From: a virus
DNA length: 22,883 bases
Direction: 5' to 3' (one strand)
IMG/VR virus record: IMGVR_UViG_3300011253_000080
Coordinates: 1-22,883 of that record
A model generated the notes under the pieces. That model searched no databases, was not told the DNA's origin, and worked only from the letters and a program-made list of their open reading frames with translations. Below are positions 2,712 to 22,883 of the stretch, piece after piece; position 1 is the first letter of the stretch, and each line of letters starts with the position of its first letter. Both the position numbers and the translations under genes were made by a program.

Positions 2712-5700
2712 CTAAAACATAGTAGCTTTACCACTAAACTGATCCGCAAAGTCCATGTATGTATCCCGTAGTTTGGGGTGTATGGATATGCCTTGGAACT
2801 TTTTAGATGTAGTCTCAGCACGGCTGTTCATGGATTTCTCTATAGATTTGCCGTTGATAGGCCAATCAGGATGATCCGCGTTGTACGCGGGTATTTTGTC
2901 ATAGGCCGCTTGTTCGGCTGCATTGTCACCGTCTGCTCTGGCCCTAGCGATTTCATCTAGGATACGCTTGCGTCTGGCCTTAGTGCCTTTTTCCATGCTT
3001 TTTATTTCAGCATTTAATTCGTAGGCCCGAGCCAACTCTGCGGGGATGAACCCTAGGGCTTGTGTGACTGCGTGTAGAGGATGCACAGGAGCAATGATAT
3101 CGCCTGCTAAGGTTTCGGCCCCACCGTCTTTGTAGAACCGCACACTCTTCATCACGTTACGCGCTGCCGATGGCGCAAAGGCTTCTGCCCCTCTAGCAAA
3201 CTCACCCGCTGCAAACAAATCAGCCGCCCGATCCATCTGCAACGCAATACCTATAGCGGGTCCACCCAACATTTCTACGGCAGTCCATATGGCAGGTTGG
3301 TCACGATCTATCAGCGTGTCCCTAAACAACAGATCGGATAACTGAATACGTGTAGCCACGTTAGTACCTGTTACGTAGTTTACAGCACCCGAGTAGTATC
3401 CTTCGCCCGTAACCCTACGCACTATGGATTGCATGGATTCTTCATCATCGTCTTTGAGTAGGTTGTAAACCATAGCCGCCGCGCCAAAGAAAGGCACACC
3501 GCGCACACCTGACATAAGTGCAGCCGATCCGTATATACCCGCGAGTTGATAAGCGGCTAGTTTCTTAGCTTCAGCAGACTGACCGACCATCCCCTCTTTT
3601 GCCAGTTTATGTAGCAGGGACAACATGGACACACCGTAACGCTTATACATAAAGACTACCGACCCGATAGACCCCTGCATTATCTGGGGTGAAGCCGCCG
3701 ATGCGCTACCACCGTTGGTCATTTCGACCATGTAGAACGCTTTTTCAGCCGCTTGCTCATACTCAGCATCACTTACAGTACGGTTATCCTTGGCGGCTTG
3801 AGCATCTAGTATATCTGCCTCAAGGTTATACGCAGCGGTGAAGGCTACCTCACGGTTAATCCGCTCTCCGTGGTGCAGCATAAAGCCCGATGCAGCGTTA
3901 AACTTTTCCATACCACCGTTAGTACCGTCTATGTCTAGCATGTCGTAAGCTAGTGTGCGTTTGAATAAACCTAGTCGTTCACCTACACCCACTGCAAACT
4001 GCATACGCTTCTTTCGGGGGTCGGTCTCGTTTGCATAGTCGTAGTTGCTTACAGACCTGTCTGCGGGAGTTCCAGTTACTTCCTGCATTTCCTTGATAGG
4101 GTTGCCTTCTGCGTCAACCTTATCGCCGTACACTTCGACCATACGCTTGCGACCACTGTTATGAATAAGGCGCATGGCCTCACCTATAGCAGAGGATGTT
4201 TTATCGTACCCATACTTAGCACCGTATACAGGGAATACTGTAAGGGGTATCTGCGAAAGGTTAACCAAAGCACCAGACACGTTAAATCCTAGCGTCATGT
4301 TAAAGCCAAGATTGGTAAGGAATTTAGAAAAGTTACTTCTGTTGACGCCAGTTCCGCTATCAGCGAAAGATACCAAAGTGTCGTACATATCTCTCATGGC
4401 GGGGGTTGTGTTACCCTCTCCACCCGCTGCATCGTAAGCCGCTTTCAGTTCTACTTTTATTGAGTCGAACTTATTGCCATATTTCATTTGCACAGCTTGC
4501 CTACCCAATAGGGTCGCACGTTTTGTAGTAGCACGTATAGCGTCTTCTATGTTACCCAATGTGCCCTTACGAGTACGAAATGACTGCATGTAGGAGGTCT
4601 CTGGGATAGTGTTAAGAACTAACTCACCAATTTCATTTATTATTTTATTGGTAGTTTCCCGCTGTTCCTTAGTGTCACTAGGGCTATTTTCGCGTATCTG
4701 TTTTGTAAGCTGCGCGATAAAAGATGCAGGGGGCGCGTTGTTAAAGTTTACTTCGGATATAGATGCTGCCTCAGTGACGCCTATCTGTGCGTCTATAGCC
4801 TCTTCTATATTGGCGTGTTTCTTTTGTCGAACCAACTCAGTCATACTAGACATAAGTTTCTGATTGCCCCGTATATCATCACGCACTTTACCTTGAATTT
4901 CAGACCATGCTCTAGCTCTAGCAGCAGGTGTGGTGAAAGATTCGGCATACCGCTCAAGGTTACCCGTAAGCGGATCAATAGCATTATAGTATAACCACAA
5001 GTCTCCTTCACGCTCCAAGGGTGTGTAGGGTTCTATAGTGCCTTTGGAAGTCAGCTTGTCATAAAAACTCTTCATAACCCTAGCGCGTACAGCACCATCA
5101 GGTATGGCTATAGTAAGCCGCTCGTCTACAGCGTTTCTAATGTCGTTTCGTAGGCCACGAAATAGGTTACGCATGGTGGCATATATACGCACGACTGCGG
5201 GACTAGCGTTCACTAAGGCTTCGTAGTCGCTTCTAACCTGCTCCCAATTAGCCATTTTCTCAGGGTCTTTGCCGTACTTTTTGACTGCGGCGGGACGGTC
5301 AAGCACAGGGTCAACTTCACGGCGCGTGGCCTCATTCACCATTCTGTTGAACTGATCTTGCAGTCCTTTGTTAGCTTTGCCCCATTGTACTATAGGTAGC
5401 AGGGTGTTCTTCAACTCGTCAATCTGCTTACCATAGGCTCCGTTAGCTTCATTAACGGTAGTGTTTAATTTAGCCCCTAAATCACCAAAGTATTTTTCGG
5501 ATATATCAGCTAGGTAGTGCAGAGGCGTAGCTTGCATTAAGAATTTATTTGCCCCGCCAAACAACCCGAGGCTCACGTTCTTTGTAGCATCTTCGATCCA
5601 AGCTAGATATCGCGTCTTACCTGCGTTGTTGAAGATAGGCCCATTTGTAATGGCAGTGTTTAGGAAGCCGTTAGCGGCGGCGGGTGTCATCAACGCAAGA

Positions 5701-8700
5701 GAATCCGCATCACGGAACTGTGGGGCAGGGGCCAACATACCTTCGATCAGATAGTCTATCTCCGATAGGGTAGAGGTCAAAGGCTTGGGTTGCAAGCCGA
5801 TTATGCGCCGCACAAAGTTAGTGATAGCATTATATAGACGTTGTAGGGCGGTCTTACCTTTATGCAGGTCGCCCTTATACACTAGCTGTCCTAGCTTCTC
5901 TTGAAACGCTGGATTAGTTAACGCTTCAGAAATAAACTCGTCTAGGTTTGTAGCCCCATACTCAGTATCTAGTACGTCTTTCACATCGTTGAACACATTA
6001 CGCAGCGCCAATGTGCTAGCAGAGTTCTTAGCCAAGGATGCAGAAACAGCGGCATGTACCATTTCATGTAAAACGGTGTGCGTGTTCATACCTGATTTAG
6101 GGTTTATGGAAATAGTGTTTGTCCTAGGATCAAACTGCCCTGCCGATGGCGCACCGTCCATATCCACAAGGTCTGGCACGAACACTATCTTGGTAGTACC
6201 CGCCATGTCTGCCAGCTTGTTAGCGATCTTAGCTAGCCTAGGGTACAGCGTACCTGCTGCAATAGCATGTAGCGTTTCTTTTAACTTACCTGCACTAAGG
6301 AAGCCCATCGCGCTAGGTGACATAGGATCATCTAGGTATACTACACTATCGGCAGGTAACGGCTTAGTAAACGTGTACTTGTTAAAGAAGTCAGCTTCGG
6401 CTTTAGCTTTTTTATTAGCTATAAACCCTGCTTTAGATGGACCTTGACGGCGGAGGATAAAATTATTTTTTGGTTGTCCTAGACTAACACCGGAAGAACC
6501 GTACAACCCTGCTTCTAATTCTGCTTGTATGTCTTCTTGTTTATCAATCTCTTGCTTTGCTTCTATTGCACCAAACACTTTGTTTATAGCGTCCATTTCC
6601 GCTTTTTCTTTTTCACTTGTAGGTACAAAAGTGCTTGCTTGCTTATCTTCAGCAGTTTTTTGTGATGTGGTAGTTCTACGCCGCGCTTCATCTTTTGCGC
6701 TATTTTTTAAATTTCTAAAGTTTGCTTTCATAGCAGTGTAGTACGCGTATGTGTACGGGTCTAAAAATTCTTCTAGCCATACCTCGGCTTTTTCCGCAGC
6801 GCCTTTGTTCTTACCTTCATAAAAATACTGTTGTTCTGGTGTCATACCCTCTTGAGTTTGCACTCTGCTAGTACCGTACACCATATCGTATGCGATTGTA
6901 TCTATAGCCAAGCCAGCATTAAGGGCTGTTTTAAAATAAAACTTAGCAGCCTTAGCCCCCGCTAATAATTCTGGCTCAAGGATTTTAAAGTTTTCTTTAT
7001 CTTTTGCTCTATTGGAAAACACTTTTTTAAGTTTGTCAGGACTAATTTCTAATAGGTTTATTATTTCGCGTTTATCCGCAACATTTGTAGGGTCCATACG
7101 TCTTAGATTACCAAGCCCCGTAGCAGGGTTTATGGTGTATGCAGCATCTACAAGTATGTCTAAATATTTTTTGCTATCTATACGGCCTATGTTTATACCT
7201 AGGTATTTCTCTCCGATAATGTCCATTATGCGTTGACCAAGAGCAGCATTTTCTTGCGCTTCGGTCTGAGCTTCGGCTCCTGCTTCAGGGTCTACTGGTT
7301 CTTCTATAGGCGCATTTGCCTTAATATTATCTCCAGCGGTGCGTTCCATAGGGGTTACAATACTATCCATGTATTGCTGTTCTGCATTAGGTTTATAAAT
7401 CCGCTCAACCGTAGTATCAGGCACAACAGATTCAACTTCAGACTCTGTAACGGGCGCGGCCTCAACCTCATCTCCAGCGGTGCGCGGCTCAACAACAGGC
7501 ATAGCCTTGGCCTTATCTCCAGCGGTGCGTGGCTCAACAACAGGTTTAAGGCTGGGTGTAATAGCTCTAACAATGTCAGCGTATGTAGCATTGTCATTAG
7601 GTATATCAAAACCTAATGTTCTAGCGGTGGCTATGTCTTCAGGACTAGCTACAGATTGTATAAACTCCGCAGCCTTAACATCGTTAGCGTCTATTTTATT
7701 AACTAAGTAGTCTTTAAAAGTACGTAGCTTTGTAGAGTCTACAGTAACAGGATCAACAGGGTTAGTTTCTTCTACTTCGACAGTGCCTGTGCTTGTCTCA
7801 ACGTCTTCAACATCACGTTTTTGATCTGTTTCTGTCTGAGCCTTACTAGCAGCAAGGTTAGCAGCTAGGCGTTGTTCTTTAATTTTAGCTAAAACAGCTT
7901 CTGCTTCTGCTTCTTCTTTAGGGTCTACAGTAGGATCAGCGCGTTTTGCTTCATTCTTACTATCAAATGTGTCTATATTATTGCCATATTCATCAGTGCT
8001 AGCTTTTGCACTTTTTTGCCATGTAGCTTTTTGTGTTGTGTCTGCATTTTGAGCAGGAGACAGTTTTGTATTACCCAAAGCCTCAATGTCTTCTATAGTG
8101 CGTTGAGCATCCCTTCGCACATCTTCTATTGTTACTTCAGTACCTCGGGCTTCGCTTACTTTAGCCGCTACCGCTGCGGCTACTTTATCGTCAGCTAATA
8201 CTTTTTTAGCTTTAGCTAAGGCTTTTTTATCTCTTACAGGGTCAGCAAACAAGTTAGGTTGAGTTTCACCTTCAGCCGCTTTTACCGTTGATGTAGGTTT
8301 TATATTGTTAGCTTCTTCGTACTCACGTTTTTGTTTTTGTAACGGAGTTTCTGCAGCATCTATAGCAGCTTTGTTTTCTGCAGCAGCAGTGGCAGCAGTA
8401 GCAGCAGTAGCAGCAGTGGCATCTTTTGCAACACGGTCTTCAGGTGTAATGGACGTAGCAGCAGAAGGCGTAAATGTACCTTCCCGTAACCCAGCCATAA
8501 GTGCTTCGTATTCGGCCAGCTTTTCGGCGTCCGATACTACTGGCCCAAAAGCTAAATCATCTACATTACTTGTAGGTTTAGCTTGAACAGGATCACCTAA
8601 ATCAAGTTGCGGCTCTCCTGCAGGAGGTACGGCATCGGGGTCTACATTTACTATAGGTTCAGGTCTTGGGCCGCGAATACCACCAGCAACACCACCTGCT

Positions 8701-9605
8701 CCAGTACCAAGCAATGCACCGCCGACAAAAGCGTTCTTTAGCTGATCTATACCCTCTTCATCAAATACTTGATCTATAGGCGCACCAGACTGTATGCGTT
8801 CAGCAGCGGTTTGGAATGTTTCGGTAAGGGCTTCAGTCCCACCACCTTTAAACGCACCGCTAAGAATACGTTGTGTAACCTTCTTGCCAACAGCATTAGG
8901 GCTAATACCCATAGCTGCCATAGCTTTAAGTCCTAAGCGTTCAGCTAAGGCTTGAGCAACAGCGGTGCCGAGCGCCACAGTAAGGTTTACATTATCTTTG
9001 CCTTTAACAGCTTCCTGCGCTTGTATGTCTTTACCAGCAAACTCGGGAACTAATCCTGCGGTAAAGCCTGCACCAAATCCTGCAGCAGCACCAAATGGTA
9101 CAGGTGTAAGTGCTCCTAACGCACCGCCAGCTATACCGCCTTTTAAACCACTCTCAAGGGACGAGCCTGTACCACCTACTAATCCTCCTAAGTACTCAAG
9201 TCCGGTACTAAAGTCATTTACATCTTGATAACGACCCACAGGACGTTGTGCTATAGATTGTAGAATAAGCTCATCGCCAAGCTCTTGTCGGGCTTCTTCT
9301 GCGTAGTCTGTACCGTAATCGGCTAGTGCAGCAATTCCAGTTTTTTGACCAACAGTTTCTATTAAGTCGCCAATAGCCTGAGAACCACTGCCTTTAGCTC
9401 TGCGATAAGCACGACCAATAGCAGTGCCGTCATCTGGTCCTTCTACATCCCCATACTTGCTTTCAAGATCAGCCTTAACAGCAGCTTCTTGAGTACGGAT
9501 ATATTCAGATATGCGTCCATATTCTTCATCAGTAGGTACGTCACCTGCAATAATTATAGGGTAGCTTCTACCGCTATACGGACCCGGAACAGATATTTGA
9601 CCCAT
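2712..9605 (-). CDS. Giant virion-associated polyvalent-type protein with HEXXH metallopeptidase motif (2297 aa)
   Basis: A 2297-residue protein, last gene of the late operon, probably an internal virion protein ejected with the DNA. Order: conserved N-terminus with YPIIIAGD (15-22); glycine-rich hydrophobic stretch about 130-187 and another about 290-312; a long Ala/Glu/Lys-rich, probably disordered segment about 320-800 holding two repeats; a zinc-metallopeptidase segment with H1180-E-M-V-H1184 and a probable third ligand E1223 or E1227 in DEFISEA; then helix-rich sequence to the C-terminus. The C-terminal module, about 1760-2060, has motifs (NLSQIPLTVF, ERINREVAF, MQGSIGSVVFMYKRYG) that I recall from very large marine phage proteins with LPD-type domains, plus possible membrane segments near 2013-2050. 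AAGGGT lies upstream of the ATG. Ejection and proteolysis are inferred. A tape-measure role is less likely because of its place after fibres and lysis genes. Confidence 0.85.
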   Translation of the reverse strand: MGQISVPGPYSGRSYPIIIAGDVPTDEEYGRISEYIRTQEAAVKADLESKYGDVEGPDDGTAIGRAYRRAKGSGSQAIGDLIETVGQKTGIAALADYGTDYAEEARQELGDELILQSIAQRPVGRYQDVNDFSTGLEYLGGLVGGTGSSLESGLKGGIAGGALGALTPVPFGAAAGFGAGFTAGLVPEFAGKDIQAQEAVKGKDNVNLTVALGTAVAQALAERLGLKAMAAMGISPNAVGKKVTQRILSGAFKGGGTEALTETFQTAAERIQSGAPIDQVFDEEGIDQLKNAFVGGALLGTGAGGVAGGIRGPRPEPIVNVDPDAVPPAGEPQLDLGDPVQAKPTSNVDDLAFGPVVSDAEKLAEYEALMAGLREGTFTPSAATSITPEDRVAKDATAATAATAATAAAENKAAIDAAETPLQKQKREYEEANNIKPTSTVKAAEGETQPNLFADPVRDKKALAKAKKVLADDKVAAAVAAKVSEARGTEVTIEDVRRDAQRTIEDIEALGNTKLSPAQNADTTQKATWQKSAKASTDEYGNNIDTFDSKNEAKRADPTVDPKEEAEAEAVLAKIKEQRLAANLAASKAQTETDQKRDVEDVETSTGTVEVEETNPVDPVTVDSTKLRTFKDYLVNKIDANDVKAAEFIQSVASPEDIATARTLGFDIPNDNATYADIVRAITPSLKPVVEPRTAGDKAKAMPVVEPRTAGDEVEAAPVTESEVESVVPDTTVERIYKPNAEQQYMDSIVTPMERTAGDNIKANAPIEEPVDPEAGAEAQTEAQENAALGQRIMDIIGEKYLGINIGRIDSKKYLDILVDAAYTINPATGLGNLRRMDPTNVADKREIINLLEISPDKLKKVFSNRAKDKENFKILEPELLAGAKAAKFYFKTALNAGLAIDTIAYDMVYGTSRVQTQEGMTPEQQYFYEGKNKGAAEKAEVWLEEFLDPYTYAYYTAMKANFRNLKNSAKDEARRRTTTSQKTAEDKQASTFVPTSEKEKAEMDAINKVFGAIEAKQEIDKQEDIQAELEAGLYGSSGVSLGQPKNNFILRRQGPSKAGFIANKKAKAEADFFNKYTFTKPLPADSVVYLDDPMSPSAMGFLSAGKLKETLHAIAAGTLYPRLAKIANKLADMAGTTKIVFVPDLVDMDGAPSAGQFDPRTNTISINPKSGMNTHTVLHEMVHAAVSASLAKNSASTLALRNVFNDVKDVLDTEYGATNLDEFISEALTNPAFQEKLGQLVYKGDLHKGKTALQRLYNAITNFVRRIIGLQPKPLTSTLSEIDYLIEGMLAPAPQFRDADSLALMTPAAANGFLNTAITNGPIFNNAGKTRYLAWIEDATKNVSLGLFGGANKFLMQATPLHYLADISEKYFGDLGAKLNTTVNEANGAYGKQIDELKNTLLPIVQWGKANKGLQDQFNRMVNEATRREVDPVLDRPAAVKKYGKDPEKMANWEQVRSDYEALVNASPAVVRIYATMRNLFRGLRNDIRNAVDERLTIAIPDGAVRARVMKSFYDKLTSKGTIEPYTPLEREGDLWLYYNAIDPLTGNLERYAESFTTPAARARAWSEIQGKVRDDIRGNQKLMSSMTELVRQKKHANIEEAIDAQIGVTEAASISEVNFNNAPPASFIAQLTKQIRENSPSDTKEQRETTNKIINEIGELVLNTIPETSYMQSFRTRKGTLGNIEDAIRATTKRATLLGRQAVQMKYGNKFDSIKVELKAAYDAAGGEGNTTPAMRDMYDTLVSFADSGTGVNRSNFSKFLTNLGFNMTLGFNVSGALVNLSQIPLTVFPVYGAKYGYDKTSSAIGEAMRLIHNSGRKRMVEVYGDKVDAEGNPIKEMQEVTGTPADRSVSNYDYANETDPRKKRMQFAVGVGERLGLFKRTLAYDMLDIDGTNGGMEKFNAASGFMLHHGERINREVAFTAAYNLEADILDAQAAKDNRTVSDAEYEQAAEKAFYMVEMTNGGSASAASPQIMQGSIGSVVFMYKRYGVSMLSLLHKLAKEGMVGQSAEAKKLAAYQLAGIYGSAALMSGVRGVPFFGAAAMVYNLLKDDDEESMQSIVRRVTGEGYYSGAVNYVTGTNVATRIQLSDLLFRDTLIDRDQPAIWTAVEMLGGPAIGIALQMDRAADLFAAGEFARGAEAFAPSAARNVMKSVRFYKDGGAETLAGDIIAPVHPLHAVTQALGFIPAELARAYELNAEIKSMEKGTKARRKRILDEIARARADGDNAAEQAAYDKIPAYNADHPDWPINGKSIEKSMNSRAETTSKKFQGISIHPKLRDTYMDFADQFSGKATMF
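7329..7343. repeat. Third, partial copy of the RTAGD-coding repeat
   Basis: ATCTCCAGCGGTGCG is identical to the core of the two tandem copies at 7470-7545 and encodes RTAGD in the giant protein. It lies about 127 nt from the nearer copy and the flanking sequence does not match. Confidence 0.7.
7470..7545. repeat. Direct 45-nt-period repeat inside the giant protein gene
   Basis: Two 31-nt copies, 7470-7500 and 7515-7545, differ at two positions and are spaced by exactly 45 nt. On the minus strand they encode a 15-residue repeat, VVEPRTAGD plus six variable residues, in the disordered part of the giant virion protein (about residues 687-716). The period keeps the frame. Confidence 0.85.
8383..8418. 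repeat. Short tandem repeat, four 9-nt units (GCAGCAGTR)
   Basis: Four uninterrupted copies of GCAGCAGTA or GCAGCAGTG, flanked by more GCA triplets. On the minus strand they encode an Ala-Ala-Thr tract (about residues 396-407) in the low-complexity part of the giant protein. The 9-nt unit preserves frame, so slippage would change linker length only. Confidence 0.85.
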
Positions 9606-15485: not shown

Positions 15486-15737
15486 TCATACTACTATCCT
15501 CAGTTCGCCGCCAGAAGTCTTGTAGACACTGTTAACGGCTAGTCCGCCAGATACTGCTGCTGCGTTATTAGCAAACACAGGGAGATTAGTCATCACTAGA
15601 GTTGTACCCCGCATAGGGCCGGGATTACTCATCTGCTGTGCATACAACGCAAAGCTACGCGTCATTTGAGCAAAGTAATTTGCATCATAGCTACTAGGAG
15701 GATCAGCAAAAAATGGTACAGGTACTTCAGTAGTCAT
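15486..15737 (-). CDS. Small phage structural-type protein (83 aa)
   Basis: An 83-residue protein. The C-terminal pattern GGLAVNSVYKTSGGELRIVV matches a short beta motif that I recall at the ends of many small phage head or tail decoration proteins (GLxxGxVYxxxGxLxIV). The N-terminal part holds a helical segment (YFAQMTRSFALYAQQM) and a polar stretch. The start is fused to the stop of the 619-residue gene as TAATG, with GGGAGACGG just upstream, so it is translated by coupling. It probably accompanies the stabilisation-like protein at the tail or connector. No closer function can be given. Confidence 0.72.
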   Translation of the reverse strand: MTTEVPVPFFADPPSSYDANYFAQMTRSFALYAQQMSNPGPMRGTTLVMTNLPVFANNAAAVSGGLAVNSVYKTSGGELRIVV

Positions 15738-17596
15738 TACCGTCTCCCATCTGGACGTACATCTATTCTAGGAGTACCCAACCGCCATGCTACACCTGAT
15801 GCACCTGTTATAGACGCTAGTTTAATTGCGACAGACCTACCCCTAATACGTATATCTACTTCTTCAGTAAACGTACCCACAGGTATTGGTTGTCCTGTTA
15901 TGGTATTATCCTCAGTGCCGAAAGCACTACCACCCGGACTATTTCTAGCTGATAGACTAAGTTCTGCTGTGGCTGTAACACCGCTTGTAGAGTTTCTAAA
16001 TGATATATCAGGCAATAACCTACGTCCGAACATAAACTGATTACCGTCACTTAATTCAAAAGGACTAGACTCTATAAATGCGCCGATACCCGAAGCGGGG
16101 TCTGTGCTGCCATCATCGTTGCCAAACTCATGTGTATATAAATATCCATCTGAGCTAGTAGCTAGAGGCCGTCCACCTATAGTATTATCAGTCCACGCAG
16201 TTCTAGGGAGTGAGCCGTAATACCATATATTTTCTGCATAATTAAACACTACATATTTGTCGTTATTTGCTGAATTTAGAGAAGGATAAAACCACCACAC
16301 TTCTGAAAATGCTGCATTACTAGCAGCCATAACTTTAGCTTGTTGTGGTAGGTTTATATCGTTAAATACATACTCTTTAACCGCGCATGGTATTTCTCTT
16401 ACGTTACCATTATATAGGTAGAACTGCCCTTTACCCATCCAGTATACTGCATCACCCACTGCTACAGCAGCGTTTTGTCCTGCAACCGATATATTTGTGG
16501 AAACTTCAGTTAGACCGTATACGAATGGATCGCCTACAAACTGCATAGTGTGGGCAGATATGTCAGTTAATACAAGTATTTGCTGTTTAGTTTGTACTGC
16601 AGCCACTATACCACTACCTGTACTAAGCTGCAGTTCCCCCGCTGTATTAGTATCTAAAGTACGCCACTCTGTAGCTGACTCTTGACTAGAAAATCTAATC
16701 GTTAGTGGGTCTTGCGTACCAGAAGCACTTTCAGGATCACACCCAAATGCAATTACATGACGGTCTTTTTCGGATACTAATACAATGTTAGCCACCGTGG
16801 GAATAGCATTACCTGACAGGCTAGATAACTCTACTGCTCTGTTTAAAGGCCCACTAGACAAGTCCCAGTAAAATATGCCCCCTCCGCGCACACACATAAT
16901 TAAGTCTTCACCAAAGTTATCTTGAGACCACAGGCGTAAAGCATTGCCCGGTATTTGAGAGTTAGCTTCAGAGTTCCATGCGCCCCTCGACCATGAACCC
17001 GCGCCCCAGCCACCACCCAAAACTACAGTATCTAGTCCCACAGTTATCTGATATGCAGCTTTAGCATTTGCGCCACCGTTTCCTGTATCACTACCATTTG
17101 CGGCTACAGCCGAAGTAATAGTATACGCATCTGAACTGCTTATTCCTGTTATCTGGTACTCTTTGTTAAGCACAGTTGCAGTAATAGTACCGCCAAGACT
17201 TACAGCACCCGAAAACGTAACAAAGTCTCCTAGAGTTGCGCCATGACTAGGGTCCGTTACGGTTATTGTAGTGGAGCCATTAGTGGCTGCAAAAGTAGCC
17301 GCATTATTACTGGACCTAATAGGTGTGATGTCTTCAGGTACATTACCTATAAGTACATAGAACTTTAAATTAGTTCCCATACCTACGTGAGATGTTCCTG
17401 TTAGACTACTCCAATTATGTAATGATCTGCAGGTGCCCAATATCGGAGTGGCAGTGGTCTTAACCCAACCCCCAATAGTTTCAGGAAAACCCATACGAAA
17501 CCTAATGCGATTACTATCAAACCAACCACCATTATTACTATATCGTGTAACATCGCGGACAATTCCCGGTTTGAACTGCAGTTTTGTATAGGCCAT
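15737..17596 (-). CDS. P22 gp10-like DNA stabilisation / tail nozzle-type protein (619 aa)
   Basis: A 619-residue beta-rich structural protein. The N-terminus (LQFKPGIVRDVTRYSNNGGW, then RIRFRMGFPETIGGW, then SLHNWSSL and THVGMG-like segments to about residue 95) is the signature I recall for phage stabilisation or nozzle proteins related in role to P22 gp10, a propeller-like closure below the portal. An inserted Ig-like domain lies near 100-170 (ITVTDPSHGATLGDFVTFSG and a tract ending in YQITVGLD), followed by GGGWGAGSWSRGAWN. The C-terminal third has repeated aromatic strand motifs (EVWWFYPSL, YVVFNYAENIWYYGSL). AGGAG overlaps the endolysin stop 11 nt upstream. Expected in the short tail; supports a podovirus-like particle. 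Role assigned from memory, with tubular tail protein B as the main alternative. Confidence 0.72.
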   Translation of the reverse strand: MAYTKLQFKPGIVRDVTRYSNNGGWFDSNRIRFRMGFPETIGGWVKTTATPILGTCRSLHNWSSLTGTSHVGMGTNLKFYVLIGNVPEDITPIRSSNNAATFAATNGSTTITVTDPSHGATLGDFVTFSGAVSLGGTITATVLNKEYQITGISSSDAYTITSAVAANGSDTGNGGANAKAAYQITVGLDTVVLGGGWGAGSWSRGAWNSEANSQIPGNALRLWSQDNFGEDLIMCVRGGGIFYWDLSSGPLNRAVELSSLSGNAIPTVANIVLVSEKDRHVIAFGCDPESASGTQDPLTIRFSSQESATEWRTLDTNTAGELQLSTGSGIVAAVQTKQQILVLTDISAHTMQFVGDPFVYGLTEVSTNISVAGQNAAVAVGDAVYWMGKGQFYLYNGNVREIPCAVKEYVFNDINLPQQAKVMAASNAAFSEVWWFYPSLNSANNDKYVVFNYAENIWYYGSLPRTAWTDNTIGGRPLATSSDGYLYTHEFGNDDGSTDPASGIGAFIESSPFELSDGNQFMFGRRLLPDISFRNSTSGVTATAELSLSARNSPGGSAFGTEDNTITGQPIPVGTFTEEVDIRIRGRSVAIKLASITGASGVAWRLGTPRIDVRPDGRR

Positions 17597-19669: not shown

Positions 19670-19849
19670 TTACCCCATACGACTAAGAATTGTTAACAGC
19701 ATAATGATTGTTGCACCAGATGTAGCTATAAGCACAGCCTCAAGTCGCTTGATCCTAGTAAAGACTTCCTTAAATTGGATTCTTACCTCTGTTTGCAAAG
19801 CCACAACATCCTTTTCTAGCGCGGAAACACGCTCATCTATATCTGCCAT
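19670..19849 (-). CDS. XhlA-like coiled-coil membrane protein (59 aa), missed by length cut-offs
   Basis: A 59-residue open frame from the ATG at 19849 to TAA at 19670. The N-terminal 40 residues form a heptad-like amphipathic helix (MADIDERVSALEKDVVALQT, then EVRIQFKEVFTRIKRLEAVL), followed by one membrane helix at about 39-56 (VLIATSGATIIMLLTIL) and a short SRMG tail. This layout is that of XhlA-like haemolysin/holin accessory proteins. The ATG is fused to the stop of the chaperone gene as TGATG, and the next gene begins 4 nt after its stop, so it fills a gap that would otherwise be empty. Likely a lysis accessory; the family call is from layout only. Confidence 0.78.
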   Translation of the reverse strand: MADIDERVSALEKDVVALQTEVRIQFKEVFTRIKRLEAVLIATSGATIIMLLTILSRMG

Positions 19850-20124
19850 CAGCTAGGCTCAACAGGCCAAGTCACATTTGTGGGAAAACCAGATTGCGCG
19901 GGAACATCGCGCAACGCCTGACGATAAGTGCGCCAATCGTCGGTTATTCTATCAGCTAATGCCATGTGGTCTGATCCCGATAGTAGTGCGTCACGTCGCG
20001 CTCGTACTTGTATTGCACTTGCAGCTATGGGGTTAGGTTGAAAATCAGGCCAGTTTGACATGTCTTCCGCGTCATCAAATACTGCGCCATCGCCTGTGTT
20101 TTTGTTGTACCAAATTTTAGACAT
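19849..20124 (-). CDS. Tail fibre assembly chaperone-like protein 1 (91 aa)
   Basis: A 91-residue protein of the phage tail assembly chaperone type. Its C-terminal domain RARRDALLSGSD ... DDWRTYRQALRDVPAQSGFP ... WPVEPS carries the family's RDxLLxxSD, WRxYRQALRD and FPxxVxWP motifs. A 39-residue N-terminal extension (MSKIWYNKNTGDGAVFDD and following) precedes it. It starts 8 nt before the stop of the glycine-rich fibre gene, with AAGGG about 6 nt upstream, so it should act on that fibre, helping folding or trimer assembly. It is paralogous to the chaperone at 21223-21438: 22 of 27 residues are identical from WRTYRQ to the final proline. Confidence 0.83.
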   Translation of the reverse strand: MSKIWYNKNTGDGAVFDDAEDMSNWPDFQPNPIAASAIQVRARRDALLSGSDHMALADRITDDWRTYRQALRDVPAQSGFPTNVTWPVEPS

Positions 20125-21220
20125 GATAAACCCTTACATTGCCTGCGCCACCATCACTGCTACCGGAAGTGCTAGTTCCACCACAGCCTCCGCCACCGGG
20201 AACCGCCCCAGCGGTGCCAGAATTATAAGCCGCACCTCTGCCAGCATAAAGACTGCCACCCCTAGTGTCTAAAGGGCTACCCGCATACGCGCCCTCACCA
20301 CCACCACCGCCAAAAACAGAATTAGTTGCTGAGGTGAGGTAGCCACCGCGAGTATCTGTTTGAGTGTTATATTTTTTGTCACCGCTCGTGTTCAGATTAG
20401 GAATAGTTGGAATGGTGGCGGGAAGAAAAAATGTTGAGGTTGGGGAAATCCTCGCAGTAACAACCTGATCAACTATGGTTATTGGGATTGTTTTGCCTTC
20501 TATTATTTTAAATATATTTACGCCTGTTTGACCTTCTGAATTTCCCCCAGTATTTCCCGTGGTGAATACAGTAGAATTGTTTGAGGATGAAAGTGTAAAA
20601 GTGGTTGCGGTTGGGAGTGAATTTGACGCGCTCGTACTTGTGCCACCTGCACCAATCACATATGCTCCACCATTAAACCACTGGGCTTTACCGTAAAGAA
20701 GTAAAGCGGACCCCCCTCCACCTCCTACGGAGTACCCATTTGAGGCATATCCGCCACCGCCGCCACCGCCCACAAGATAAACCCAAACGTAATCAGTGTC
20801 AGCCAAACTACCTTTGCTCCATGTCCCGCTGCTTGTGTATGTATTAGTTGGAGAGGCAAAATCAGAGGGCCAAACTACAGAGCTTGCACCTGCTTGAACC
20901 GCAGCAAAGGACAAATCGGTGCCATCAGACGTTAGAACTGTTCCCGCTGCGCCTTTAGCAAGAGGGGCGGACACACCTGAAGCGTTTCCTACATCTATAG
21001 AACCTCGCGTTAGGGCGCGTGTAACAGCACCTGTGGCTGTTATAGAACCCGCAGCAGCAATGTTTACTGTGCCATCTGCAACTGATGCCACCGTAGCGTT
21101 AGCGCCGTTCTTGATTACAACGTCTGTGCTGCTACCATCGCCCTTTAGGATAAGGCCGTCAGCCGTGGTGTTGGTAATCGAACCCGTCGAAAACCCTGCT
21201 AAATCTCTAGCTTTGGTCAT
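20117..21220 (-). CDS. Tail fibre with glycine-rich C-terminal domain (367 aa)
   Basis: A 367-residue host-recognition fibre. The N-terminus (MTKARDLAGF, then DGLILKGDGSSTDVVIKNG and repeated VNIAAAGSITATGAV segments) is a beta-repeat shaft of the kind that attaches to the virion. A module APLAKGAAGTVLTSDGTDLSF near 86-107 is shared with the upstream fibre. From about residue 130 (SGTWSKGSLADTDYVWVYLVGG) to the end it is a glycine-rich domain with runs of five to seven glycines, ending GGAGNVRVYHV; such domains occur in phage adhesins and could bind the receptor. SD AGGGAGA overlaps the previous stop; the start is 2 nt after it. A fibre chaperone gene follows directly with an 8-nt overlap. 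Receptor unknown. Confidence 0.85.
   Translation of the reverse strand: MTKARDLAGFSTGSITNTTADGLILKGDGSSTDVVIKNGANATVASVADGTVNIAAAGSITATGAVTRALTRGSIDVGNASGVSAPLAKGAAGTVLTSDGTDLSFAAVQAGASSVVWPSDFASPTNTYTSSGTWSKGSLADTDYVWVYLVGGGGGGGYASNGYSVGGGGGSALLLYGKAQWFNGGAYVIGAGGTSTSASNSLPTATTFTLSSSNNSTVFTTGNTGGNSEGQTGVNIFKIIEGKTIPITIVDQVVTARISPTSTFFLPATIPTIPNLNTSGDKKYNTQTDTRGGYLTSATNSVFGGGGGEGAYAGSPLDTRGGSLYAGRGAAYNSGTAGAVPGGGGCGGTSTSGSSDGGAGNVRVYHV
20913..20956. repeat. 44-nt repeat copy A shared by both fibre genes
   Basis: Matches 22840-22883 at 40 of 44 bases in the same orientation. It encodes KGAAGTVLTSDGTDLSF in the glycine-rich fibre. The four differences are synonymous at the protein level in this stretch. 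Confidence 0.9.
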
Positions 21221-21222
21221 GG

Positions 21223-21438
21223 TTATTCTCCCTTGATTCTATTTTTATCTATAAAGTCAGGATCATCGGGCCAAATAACATTTGAGGGAAATCCAGACTG
21301 AGCGGGTATGTCCCTAAGTGCCTGTCTGTACGTGCGCCACGCATCAGGTACATAGTCAGGCCAAACCTTACTGTCAGATAGTTCAAGGAGTAAATTTCTA
21401 TTTTCTCTAACTATATCAGATGCGGTTTTGACAGACAT
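21223..21438 (-). CDS. Tail fibre assembly chaperone-like protein 2 (71 aa)
   Basis: A 71-residue chaperone-like protein, little more than the core domain: RENRNLLLELSD, then DAWRTYRQALRDIPAQSGFP, then NVIWPDDPD. It aligns without gaps to the C-terminal domain of the 91-residue chaperone downstream but lacks that protein's N-terminal extension, having only nine residues (MSVKTASDI and one more) before the core. It starts at TAATG on the stop of the repeat fibre gene, with GGGAGG 5 nt upstream, and the glycine-rich fibre starts 2 nt after its stop. It should serve the fibre encoded just before it. Confidence 0.82.
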   Translation of the reverse strand: MSVKTASDIVRENRNLLLELSDSKVWPDYVPDAWRTYRQALRDIPAQSGFPSNVIWPDDPDFIDKNRIKGE

Positions 21439-22883
21439 TATAACCTCCCTACGTTAAGATAAATTGAAGAAGAAGATAGAGCCACGCCAACGGCTCCAAC
21501 GCCATCCACCCCAATTTCCGAAAGTGTTGCCGAACTAGAAATAAGTCCATACTCTTTACCAGCCGTTAGCCCACTTACTGACGTATTAATTCCACCAGCA
21601 ACCGTAACTTTGCCCGTGGCCCCATTTGAAATGTTTTCCGCTGCAATACCTACAAAAGATGGAGCCGTTGTATTTAAAACGCGAACATTAGTTCCATCAG
21701 CATTTACCAGACTACCCGTATCAGGGTCATAAACGGCGGCGGGGTATCCACTGCTGCTCCCTGACCCCCATTGAATTTTTTCCGTCAACGGTGCAAACGT
21801 AATCTGTGTAGTACTTACATCTATTTGTAAAAGAGTATTGTGTGTCCCCGCAGTTTCAGGATACTGCATGTACATTTTATCACCAGCAACGGCTACATAG
21901 ATTTGTCCCGGCCCTACCCCAAGAGTCTCATCAAAACGAATTCCACTAGGCACCGTAATATCCGTGCCACTAACTGTTAAAATGTAATAGTACGCATAAG
22001 AGCCAGCATAGCCCTGTATAAGAACTGTTCTGTTAATAGAAGGAATATAAGTTAACTCTGGACGATAACTTCCGTTAGAAAGACCATTACCGTTAACTGC
22101 CGTCCCACCACTAACACTTGTTCCGCTAATTGTTAAAACCCTTAGAGTAGGAACACCCGCGCCATAACCTATCATCGAAAGAACAAATTTGTTTGCGGTA
22201 GAATCAAAACTCAAAGCCGTTCCGTCTATAGTAGCATTAAGTGTAGACACTTGTGCTTCTGCACCGAAACTAATAGAAGTACCGCTGACAGTTCCAACTC
22301 TACCGTAAACCTTACCGTTGCTCTGGTTGTAAATACAGAGAACTTTTTGTGCATTACTGTCGTATTCAACTATAGTATTATACTGGGCGCTACTTTTCAT
22401 CGCTACAGGAGTGCCAAATGAGAGGTCCGTACCACTAACCGTTACAACTACGGCGTAAGGGTAATTATTACCATTTTTTTGTGTATAAGTAACCACAGTT
22501 TTTCCAGAATTAACATCGTAAGCGGCATGAATATCATCTGCGCCGACACCAGTAGTAGCCGCTGTTCCAAATGAAATTTGTCCGTTAGCAACAGTGCCTA
22601 CTCTGCCATACAAATAGAGGTTCGTGCCTTTAAAAAATAATAACACTTTGTCATTAGCAGTATCATAAACTAATGCTTGAAATGAGGACGCCCCACTCCC
22701 CTGTGCCACAGACGCCTGTAACTCTGCTTCTGACACAGAAATTGTTCCGTTTGCATTAAATCCTACTAAATCACCCGCTGAAATAGCACCTGTAGCAGTA
22801 AACGTCTGTTCACCACCACCGCTTGCTGCCACAAACGATAAATCGGTGCCATCAGATGTTAGGACTGTTCCCGCAGCACCTTT
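21438..22883 (-). CDS. Tail fibre/spike with propeller-like repeats, 5' end outside window
   Basis: The last 481 residues of a fibre or spike protein; the frame is open to the window edge, so the GTG at 22832 is not the start. Numbering from that GTG: the visible N-terminal part repeats the KGAAGTVLTSDGTDLSF module of the other fibre just before residue 1, followed by SAGDLVGFNANGTISV (18-33). Then come about seven repeats of about 51 residues, beginning near 55, 105, 156, 207, 260, 311 and 365. Each has an aYDxxxxKvl strand pair and a later vgTVSGTxiSFGt strand, as in a beta-propeller. The C-terminus (PSFVGIAAENISNGATGKVT ... VGVALSSSSIYLNVGRL) matches a small beta domain I recall at many phage fibre ends. 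A dedicated chaperone gene follows. Likely binds a surface glycan; receptor unknown. Confidence 0.85.
   Translation of the reverse strand, partial: KGAAGTVLTSDGTDLSFVAASGGGEQTFTATGAISAGDLVGFNANGTISVSEAELQASVAQGSGASSFQALVYDTANDKVLLFFKGTNLYLYGRVGTVANGQISFGTAATTGVGADDIHAAYDVNSGKTVVTYTQKNGNNYPYAVVVTVSGTDLSFGTPVAMKSSAQYNTIVEYDSNAQKVLCIYNQSNGKVYGRVGTVSGTSISFGAEAQVSTLNATIDGTALSFDSTANKFVLSMIGYGAGVPTLRVLTISGTSVSGGTAVNGNGLSNGSYRPELTYIPSINRTVLIQGYAGSYAYYYILTVSGTDITVPSGIRFDETLGVGPGQIYVAVAGDKMYMQYPETAGTHNTLLQIDVSTTQITFAPLTEKIQWGSGSSSGYPAAVYDPDTGSLVNADGTNVRVLNTTAPSFVGIAAENISNGATGKVTVAGGINTSVSGLTAGKEYGLISSSATLSEIGVDGVGAVGVALSSSSIYLNVGRL
21444..21449 (-). promoter_or_regulatory. Ribosome binding site GGGAGG for chaperone 2
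   Basis: GGGAGG on the minus strand, 5 nt before the ATG at 21438, inside the end of the fibre gene. Supports the TAATG-coupled start. Confidence 0.65.
22840..22883. repeat. 44-nt repeat copy B shared by both fibre genes
   Basis: Matches 20913-20956 at 40 of 44 bases, same orientation, coding for the same module in the upstream fibre. It runs into the window edge, so the full length of the match cannot be seen. Confidence 0.9.

Follow-up and report, generated by a model that had tools for sequence, protein, structure and literature searches.

A predicted seven-bladed propeller held in a split socket is the probable receptor-binding head of a phage tail fibre

The window, i.e., the whole stretch of 22,883 nucleotides of viral DNA analysed here, ends in a minus-strand reading frame (22883–21438) that is open for 481 codons and has its 5′ end off the window. 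Downstream of this gene, hereafter the propeller gene, we found in order a tail fibre assembly gene, a second fibre gene and a second assembly-type gene:

21223–21438, minus strand: tail fibre assembly (chaperone-like) gene, directly downstream of the propeller gene (phrog_4912 tail fiber assembly, E 3.8e-15)
20117–21220, minus strand: second fibre gene with a glycine-rich head and a linker, KGAAGTVLTSDGTDLSF, in common with the propeller gene (52-nt repeat, 88% identical between 22832–22883 and 20905–20956; PF21722 E 8.8e-4, below cut-off; phrog_863 tail fiber assembly E 8.6e-4)
19849–20124, minus strand: second assembly-type gene, a paralogue of 21223–21438 (common motif WRTYRQALRD.PAQSGFP.NV.WP, read from the translations)

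Relatives of the propeller gene with a visible start possess 76–95 additional upstream residues (counted from the first Met), and because of this extension and because the frame exits the window, the GTG at 22832, from which the first-pass annotation had numbered the protein, is internal and not a start. The contig end falls within the 52-nt repeat of the two fibre genes, and one relative on a 55.8 kb contig (L009; relatives are cited by locus) begins at the same codon as the window frame. A contig end at a linker common to two fibre genes is likely an assembly break; the gene is the 3′ part of a longer one, and the window may hold only some of the propeller genes, with more beyond its end.

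The stem of the window protein itself lies beyond the window, and its close relatives possess stems. Stems matching tail fibre families were recovered in three of the seven propeller relatives scanned (L121, L110 and L056); the stem of L107 matches 11 Synechococcus phage records, five of them annotated as tail fibre, and that of L004, the sole close relative scanned, matched no PHROG. Among 120 of the 148 nearest-neighbour ORFs of the relatives (24 minus-strand and 4 plus-strand ORFs were left out of the scan), Phage_tail_APC occurs in nine and the virion structural family phrog_3287 in 17. The window has its own structural gene of the stabilization-protein kind at 15737–17596 (phrog_3287, E 2.5e-62), which is named stabilization protein in DSL-LC04. 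Since the best-matching records of this gene are a mixture (DSL-LC04, 39%; Planktothrix and Synechococcus, 35%; CRP-901, 35%; HTVC phages, 33–36%) and the window has no tRNA genes, we claim no host or habitat for it. Elsewhere in the window, 2712–9605 encodes a 2297-aa protein with a DarB-like antirestriction match (phrog_10089, E 2.6e-51).

The propeller gene had been described from its translation as bearing about seven repeats with a YD strand and a TVSGTxISFG strand, and these repeats are real. A blade profile HMM, built from 42 blades of six remote relatives with the window left out of training, scores 125 bits on the window protein over six stretches (the sixth with E 3.3), against a best of 5.7 bits in 200 shuffles, of which 32 gave any match, and 6.1 bits in the reversed sequence. 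Self-comparison of residues 51–400 peaks at lags 52 (z 4.4), 50 (4.0) and 101 (3.8), and since the maxima over lags in shuffles lie at 3.5 (95%) and 4.1 (99.5%), only lag 52 clears the stricter level. The seven repeats in the 481-residue frame are spaced by 49–54 residues. The YD-type pattern is in register at residues 73, 122, 174, 226 and 385, with one out-of-register match at 317 and degenerate forms at about 279 and 331 that coincide with the A-B turns of the structural model; TVSGTxISFG-type strands lie at 97, 148, 198, 251 and 303, and VSTTQITF at 356. Numbered over the whole open frame, the protein is divided as follows, with strand and blade limits taken from the models described below:

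22812–22883, minus strand: end of the fibre stem/linker, residues 1–24, the gene going on past the window (5′-open frame; upstream extension in relatives; pLDDT about 50 over the first 20 residues)
22743–22811, minus strand: predicted N-terminal half of the barrel-like socket, residues 25–47 (strands 25–30 and 39–42; block pLDDT 78–95; N-half HMM at 24–50, window in training set)
22734–22742, minus strand: strand 48–50, putative outer strand of blade 7 closing the ring (DSSP of both models)
22569–22691, minus strand: predicted blade 1, residues 65–105 (model; blade HMM E 9e-10)
22416–22559, minus strand: predicted blade 2, residues 109–156 (model; blade HMM E 5e-12)
22266–22385, minus strand: predicted blade 3, residues 167–206 (model; blade HMM E 4e-15)
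22107–22235, minus strand: predicted blade 4, residues 217–259 (model; blade HMM E 4e-6)
21954–22058, minus strand: predicted blade 5, residues 276–310 (model; blade HMM E 0.036)
21795–21899, minus strand: predicted blade 6, residues 329–363 (model alone; the HMM gave no match)
21672–21740, minus strand: predicted blade 7, residues 382–404, three strands (model; HMM scrap at 376–390, E 3.3)
21438–21671, minus strand: predicted C-terminal half of the socket, residues 405–481 plus stop (block pLDDT 79–96 to residue 480; C-half HMM at 406–477, window in training set; PF09956 E 0.12)

The sequence alone reveals blades 1–4 clearly and blade 5 weakly, and the models are the main evidence for blades 6 and 7. 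AlphaFold2 runs with 16 sequences (pLDDT 78, pTM 0.76) and with 107 sequences (seven blades, pLDDT 88.4, pTM 0.86) gave identical blade strands, namely six four-stranded blades and a seventh of three strands; because blade 7 has three strands in the models, strand 48–50 is presumably its fourth. The strands of these monomer models and the fold matches support a head that is predicted to be a closed seven-bladed ring. The first-pass annotation had proposed just such a propeller on a phage fibre, a proposal now backed by both models and by the blade counts in relatives, and the contrary outcome it had named, a linear solenoid or unrelated domains, appears in neither model; both models, together with the clustering of the blade counts, led us to reject a solenoid. 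In both VIA-align lists the first 19 rows are all PLL/PHL/BP39L lectins (Z 28.9–31.3, rmsd 2.3–2.9 Å over 304–319 residues, identity 8–12%), followed by CylK (Z 28.9, one list only), YncE (28.3–28.7) and WD40 rings (about 25); as Z differences under 1 count as ties, CylK and YncE tie with the lowest lectins, and the lectins lead clearly in the uppermost rows alone. PhiKZ gp131, phi11 Gp45, PRD1 P2 and K1F are not among the best 50 fold matches listed.

A scan of viral contigs with remote members recovered at least 461 relatives. In isolate and single-cell records the propeller was found in only three, two of them records of one phage, ICBM2, and the third the single-cell virus AG-345-O18; it was found in five MAG contigs among the species genomes searched and in none of the plasmids searched. 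The named relatives found are all from seawater, and we found no earlier description of the propeller/socket family in the open-access literature. Blade matches per complete-ORF relative (n = 174, a set that includes contigs fetched twice) number seven in 127, 14 in 15, 28 in one and between 3 and 15 in the 31 others, where sevens are favoured because the loci were chosen by similarity to the seven-bladed L019 or its barrel, and where the sets counted had also supplied training members for the blade and socket HMMs (ICBM2, L002, was not in training). The close family of the window scores 4–5 blade matches because several of its blades have diverged, and includes tandem propeller genes (three in L013, 528–6140, and two in L014, 21–3910). 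The protein with 28 matches (L050, 3439–10497) has 2353 aa and four sockets and lies in a MAG labelled Euryarchaeota.

The ring is flanked by conserved sequence, with a mean difference among close sequences of 0.15 for residues 1–47 and 405–446 and 0.30 for 447–481, and both flanks, the predicted socket halves, are well modelled with the deeper, 107-sequence alignment. Of 153 single-ring ORFs, 142 carry a single N-half and a single C-half, and the other 11 show one extra match. The 20 two-ring ORFs have one N-half each and one C-half (15 ORFs) or two (five), and the 28-blade protein has four of each. When identical ORFs are dropped and loci L048–L208 alone are counted, distinct complete ORFs yield 241 N-to-C socket pairs: 203 enclose 331–420 residues with 6–8 blades, 28 enclose more than 420 residues with nine or more blades, seven have 1–5 blades, one is a shorter six-blade case and two enclose only 6–7 residues. 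Six ORFs contain both halves and no blade match: L019 and L053 (the same empty socket, at 4648–4998 in L019), L020 (empty, 106–465), L064 (empty, truncated where the contig stops), L038 (a socket with a glycine-rich region after it) and L108 (a 417-residue insert with a mere trace of blades). Empty sockets thus occur in four contigs (L019/L053/L130, L178, L020 and L064), each accompanied in its locus by a propeller gene, and their presence beside filled ones suggests a way for binding heads to be acquired or shed with the frame left intact. In L178, the propeller gene beside the empty socket (1399–2700) is a six-bladed member with a regular register.

Among Pfam families, PF09956 Phage_cement_2 (formerly DUF2190) matches the C-half most often: 20 of 48 members show it at E up to 1, the best of them (0.0045) still below cut-off. 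The C-half of the window, scored alone, reaches 13.2 bits (curated cut-off 24 bits, for a split domain scored by one half). The profile is matched at positions 28–89 of 103, and the N-half of the window has about the missing length. A family of unknown function, phrog_4368, is matched by 46 of 48 C-halves at E up to 0.1, and nearly end to end by three empty sockets. Our inference is that one loop of a small cement-like barrel has received the ring as an insertion. Such a relationship to cement and decoration proteins could instead mean that the ring decorates the capsid or neck and projects from the phage head and not from a tail fibre: besides PF09956, head-decoration phrogs weakly match single members (the empty socket of L020 at E 5.6e-4), major head protein families occur in three of the 120 neighbours, and many of the remote members listed have only about 15–30 residues ahead of the socket. 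However, a stem precedes the socket in the close family of the window, a tail-fibre-assembly gene follows in the window itself, and several relatives have tail-fibre stems, so that a decoration role appears unlikely next to that of a tail fibre head.

Strand order places both termini of the predicted ring on the face that bears the A-B and C-D turns. We compared the faces in 11 of 14 close sequences (the window and 13 loci, leaving out L006, the same ORF as L005, L009, a near-copy of L008, and the fragment L015; the rows of L010 and L013 are partial). Mean pairwise difference is 0.46 in D-A loops and 0.51 in B-C loops versus 0.10 in A-B turns and 0.14 in C-D turns, and strand halves differ by 0.43 on the top, i.e., the face opposite the termini, versus 0.24 on the bottom, the top being the more variable in seven of seven blades; the D strand is opposite in trend (0.10 top versus 0.32 bottom, 10 columns each). 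Conservation of the short A-B and C-D turns may reflect structural constraint; B-C hairpins are about as short (3–5 residues) and vary about five times more. For the window and L003, dN/dS is 0.51 on the top versus 0.08 on the bottom (dS 0.16 and 0.13), a ratio computed for four pairs and undefined for the bottom in two of them; substitution counts redone for all 55 pairs, which are not independent, place non-synonymous change higher on the top in all 55. Synonymous change is likewise higher on the top in all nine of the 55 pairs that were listed, so selection is not the sole possible cause of the top variability, and no dN/dS above 1 is established. Across 879 remote blades variability peaks in the D-A loop and at some B-C positions, the remaining positions of the B-C hairpin being conserved and the C-D turn nearly fixed. 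In most of these blades (L053–L129) the hairpin reads D-x-G-N-S-x-Y-G, possibly a repeated ligand or ion site, and it is degenerate in the family of the window. The face opposite both termini probably recognises host cells, and the variability pattern offers a testable map of the face that meets the host.

The heads also appear to have histories of their own. Synonymous divergence between L007 and L008 is 0.008 in the ring versus 0.333 in residues 1–47, and between L011 and L014 it is 0.588 in the ring versus 0.027 in residues 1–47. The ring (residues 51–404) is lower than the N-half in 35 of 55 pairs, the disagreement running in both directions among L003–L014, and lower than the C-half in only nine of 45. 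Two stems bear this head, MTKARDLAGF (L004 and L013) and MAGYIGSK (nine rows, L006 being the same ORF as L005). Because of the discordant divergence and of the two stems on one head, heads and stems seem to recombine near the shared linker; the head and N-half histories are discordant, which points to recombination of heads.

In PLL and PHL, according to the available text of PMC5584973 and PMC6943638, sugars sit between blades, with two Trp per hydrophobic site. The window protein has a single Trp (residue 372, in KIQWGSG), and the paired Trp of such inter-blade sites were looked for in it and are absent; across the 55-row relative alignment, window included, proteins have 0–5 Trp. PDB searches with the single sequence or a 16-row profile returned no PLL/PHL chain at E ≤ 10, and so no lectin homology at the sequence level; the weak single-sequence matches were an aldolase and the WD40 ring G-beta-5 (E 0.46–0.75). 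With the two-Trp sites missing, the lectin resemblance is one of fold only, and of the lectin-like, glycan-binding propeller suggested initially the fold similarity is retained, at the top rows of the structural lists, and the sugar-site Trp pairs and a sequence match are not. WD40 repeats have a WD motif at the blade terminus; this motif is absent from the window protein, with its one Trp over seven blades and no Pfam match at E up to 1. Neither Pfam nor NCBIfam has a model that matches the window protein at E up to 1, and PHROG matches below 0.31 are likewise absent. Pfam matches in relatives (Cyclophil_like2 in 17 of 55, best E 4e-10; DUF1923; Agenet) represent unrelated folds and were set aside as repeat-amplified, and weak PHROGs of unknown function were also found in relatives.

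A glycan-degrading tailspike propeller of a sialidase-, lyase- or hydrolase-like kind finds some support in the fold matches, which include sialidases, a rhamnose-glucuronate lyase and BT3686-type hydrolases, but these enzymes rank below the lectins and YncE in VIA-align. The Asp-box motifs of sialidases end in TW, and with the only Trp in KIQWGSG the window protein has no such boxes; it also lacks Pfam and NCBIfam matches at the above threshold, and the outward face is its least conserved part, all of which makes an enzyme very unlikely. Least probable is a generic structural ring with no recognition role, like the propellers that the available text of PMC10386132, PMC9509320 and PMC6702177 places in podoviral nozzle (tubular-B) proteins, with which the weak G-beta-5 matches would agree, but against which stand the separate stabilization-type gene of the window and the concentration of variability on one face.

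We therefore favour, as the probable function of the gene product, the distal receptor-binding half, or head, of a phage tail fibre, with a predicted seven-bladed ring in a predicted socket. The split socket (residues about 25–47 and 405–478) would sit at the end of the fibre stem, presumably in a trimeric assembly, and the propeller (about 48–404) would be plugged into one socket loop and closed by its N-terminal strand. Both ring ends would lie on one face, tied to the socket, so that the opposite face with its D-A and B-C loops would point away from the virus and touch the host surface; that the outward face is the most variable is as expected where host receptors change. Heads would be exchanged between phages. 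The ligand could be a glycan or, just as plausibly, a protein or another molecule, neither option being favoured, and an enzyme substrate is improbable. More tentatively still than the assignment of the window gene, and at slightly less than even confidence, we posit that many uncultured viruses share a modular adhesin, in which a propeller cassette occupies one loop of a barrel socket that may be empty, hold one ring (7 blades) or two (14), or be repeated four times in succession (28 blades), frequently in tandem genes of the same contig and with heads exchanged. If true, one virion could show several outward faces on a common frame, and the adhesin would represent a host-recognition module that is widespread and as yet without a name.

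The cultivable test case for this family is gene 49 of Lentibacter phage vB_LenP_ICBM2 (AYP28108.1, hypothetical protein), the best named viral model match (E 5e-21; 30% identity over 88%). Like the window protein, it has both socket halves and blades by HMMs trained without ICBM2, and it is flanked on both sides by tail assembly chaperone genes; only three of its blades are clear by sequence and it has no annotated function. For cobaviruses such as ICBM2, the available text of PMC6775973 presents the equivalent end region as the variable tail-fibre region. The view that a propeller is uncommon as the main head of a phage fibre is fair, yet there are precedents: the available text of PMC4901313 covers phi11 Gp45, PRD1 P2, PhiKZ gp131 and the endosialidases, reporting for phi11 Gp45 a propeller in the receptor-binding protein with a proposed GlcNAc site, and for PhiKZ gp131C a seven-bladed propeller at the baseplate periphery whose role is unproven. 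Unlike the window protein, phi11 Gp45 has five blades and helical stem and tower domains; PhiKZ gp131C shares with it the seven blades (here predicted), and neither was a sequence match in the PDB searches. The PLL/PHL/BP39L bangle lectins of Photorhabdus and Burkholderia likewise have seven blades of four strands (again by prediction in our case), but they are free lectins, whereas the window ring would be inserted in a fibre domain. Phage_cement_2, to which the C-half is weakly similar, differs by the 330–420 aa propeller insert of the window-type socket. Propellers on phage receptor-binding proteins are thus known from a handful of isolates, whereas the present family abounds in viral contigs from the environment; heads of the propeller type were already known, and what is new is the split socket, the empty sockets and the multi-ring members.
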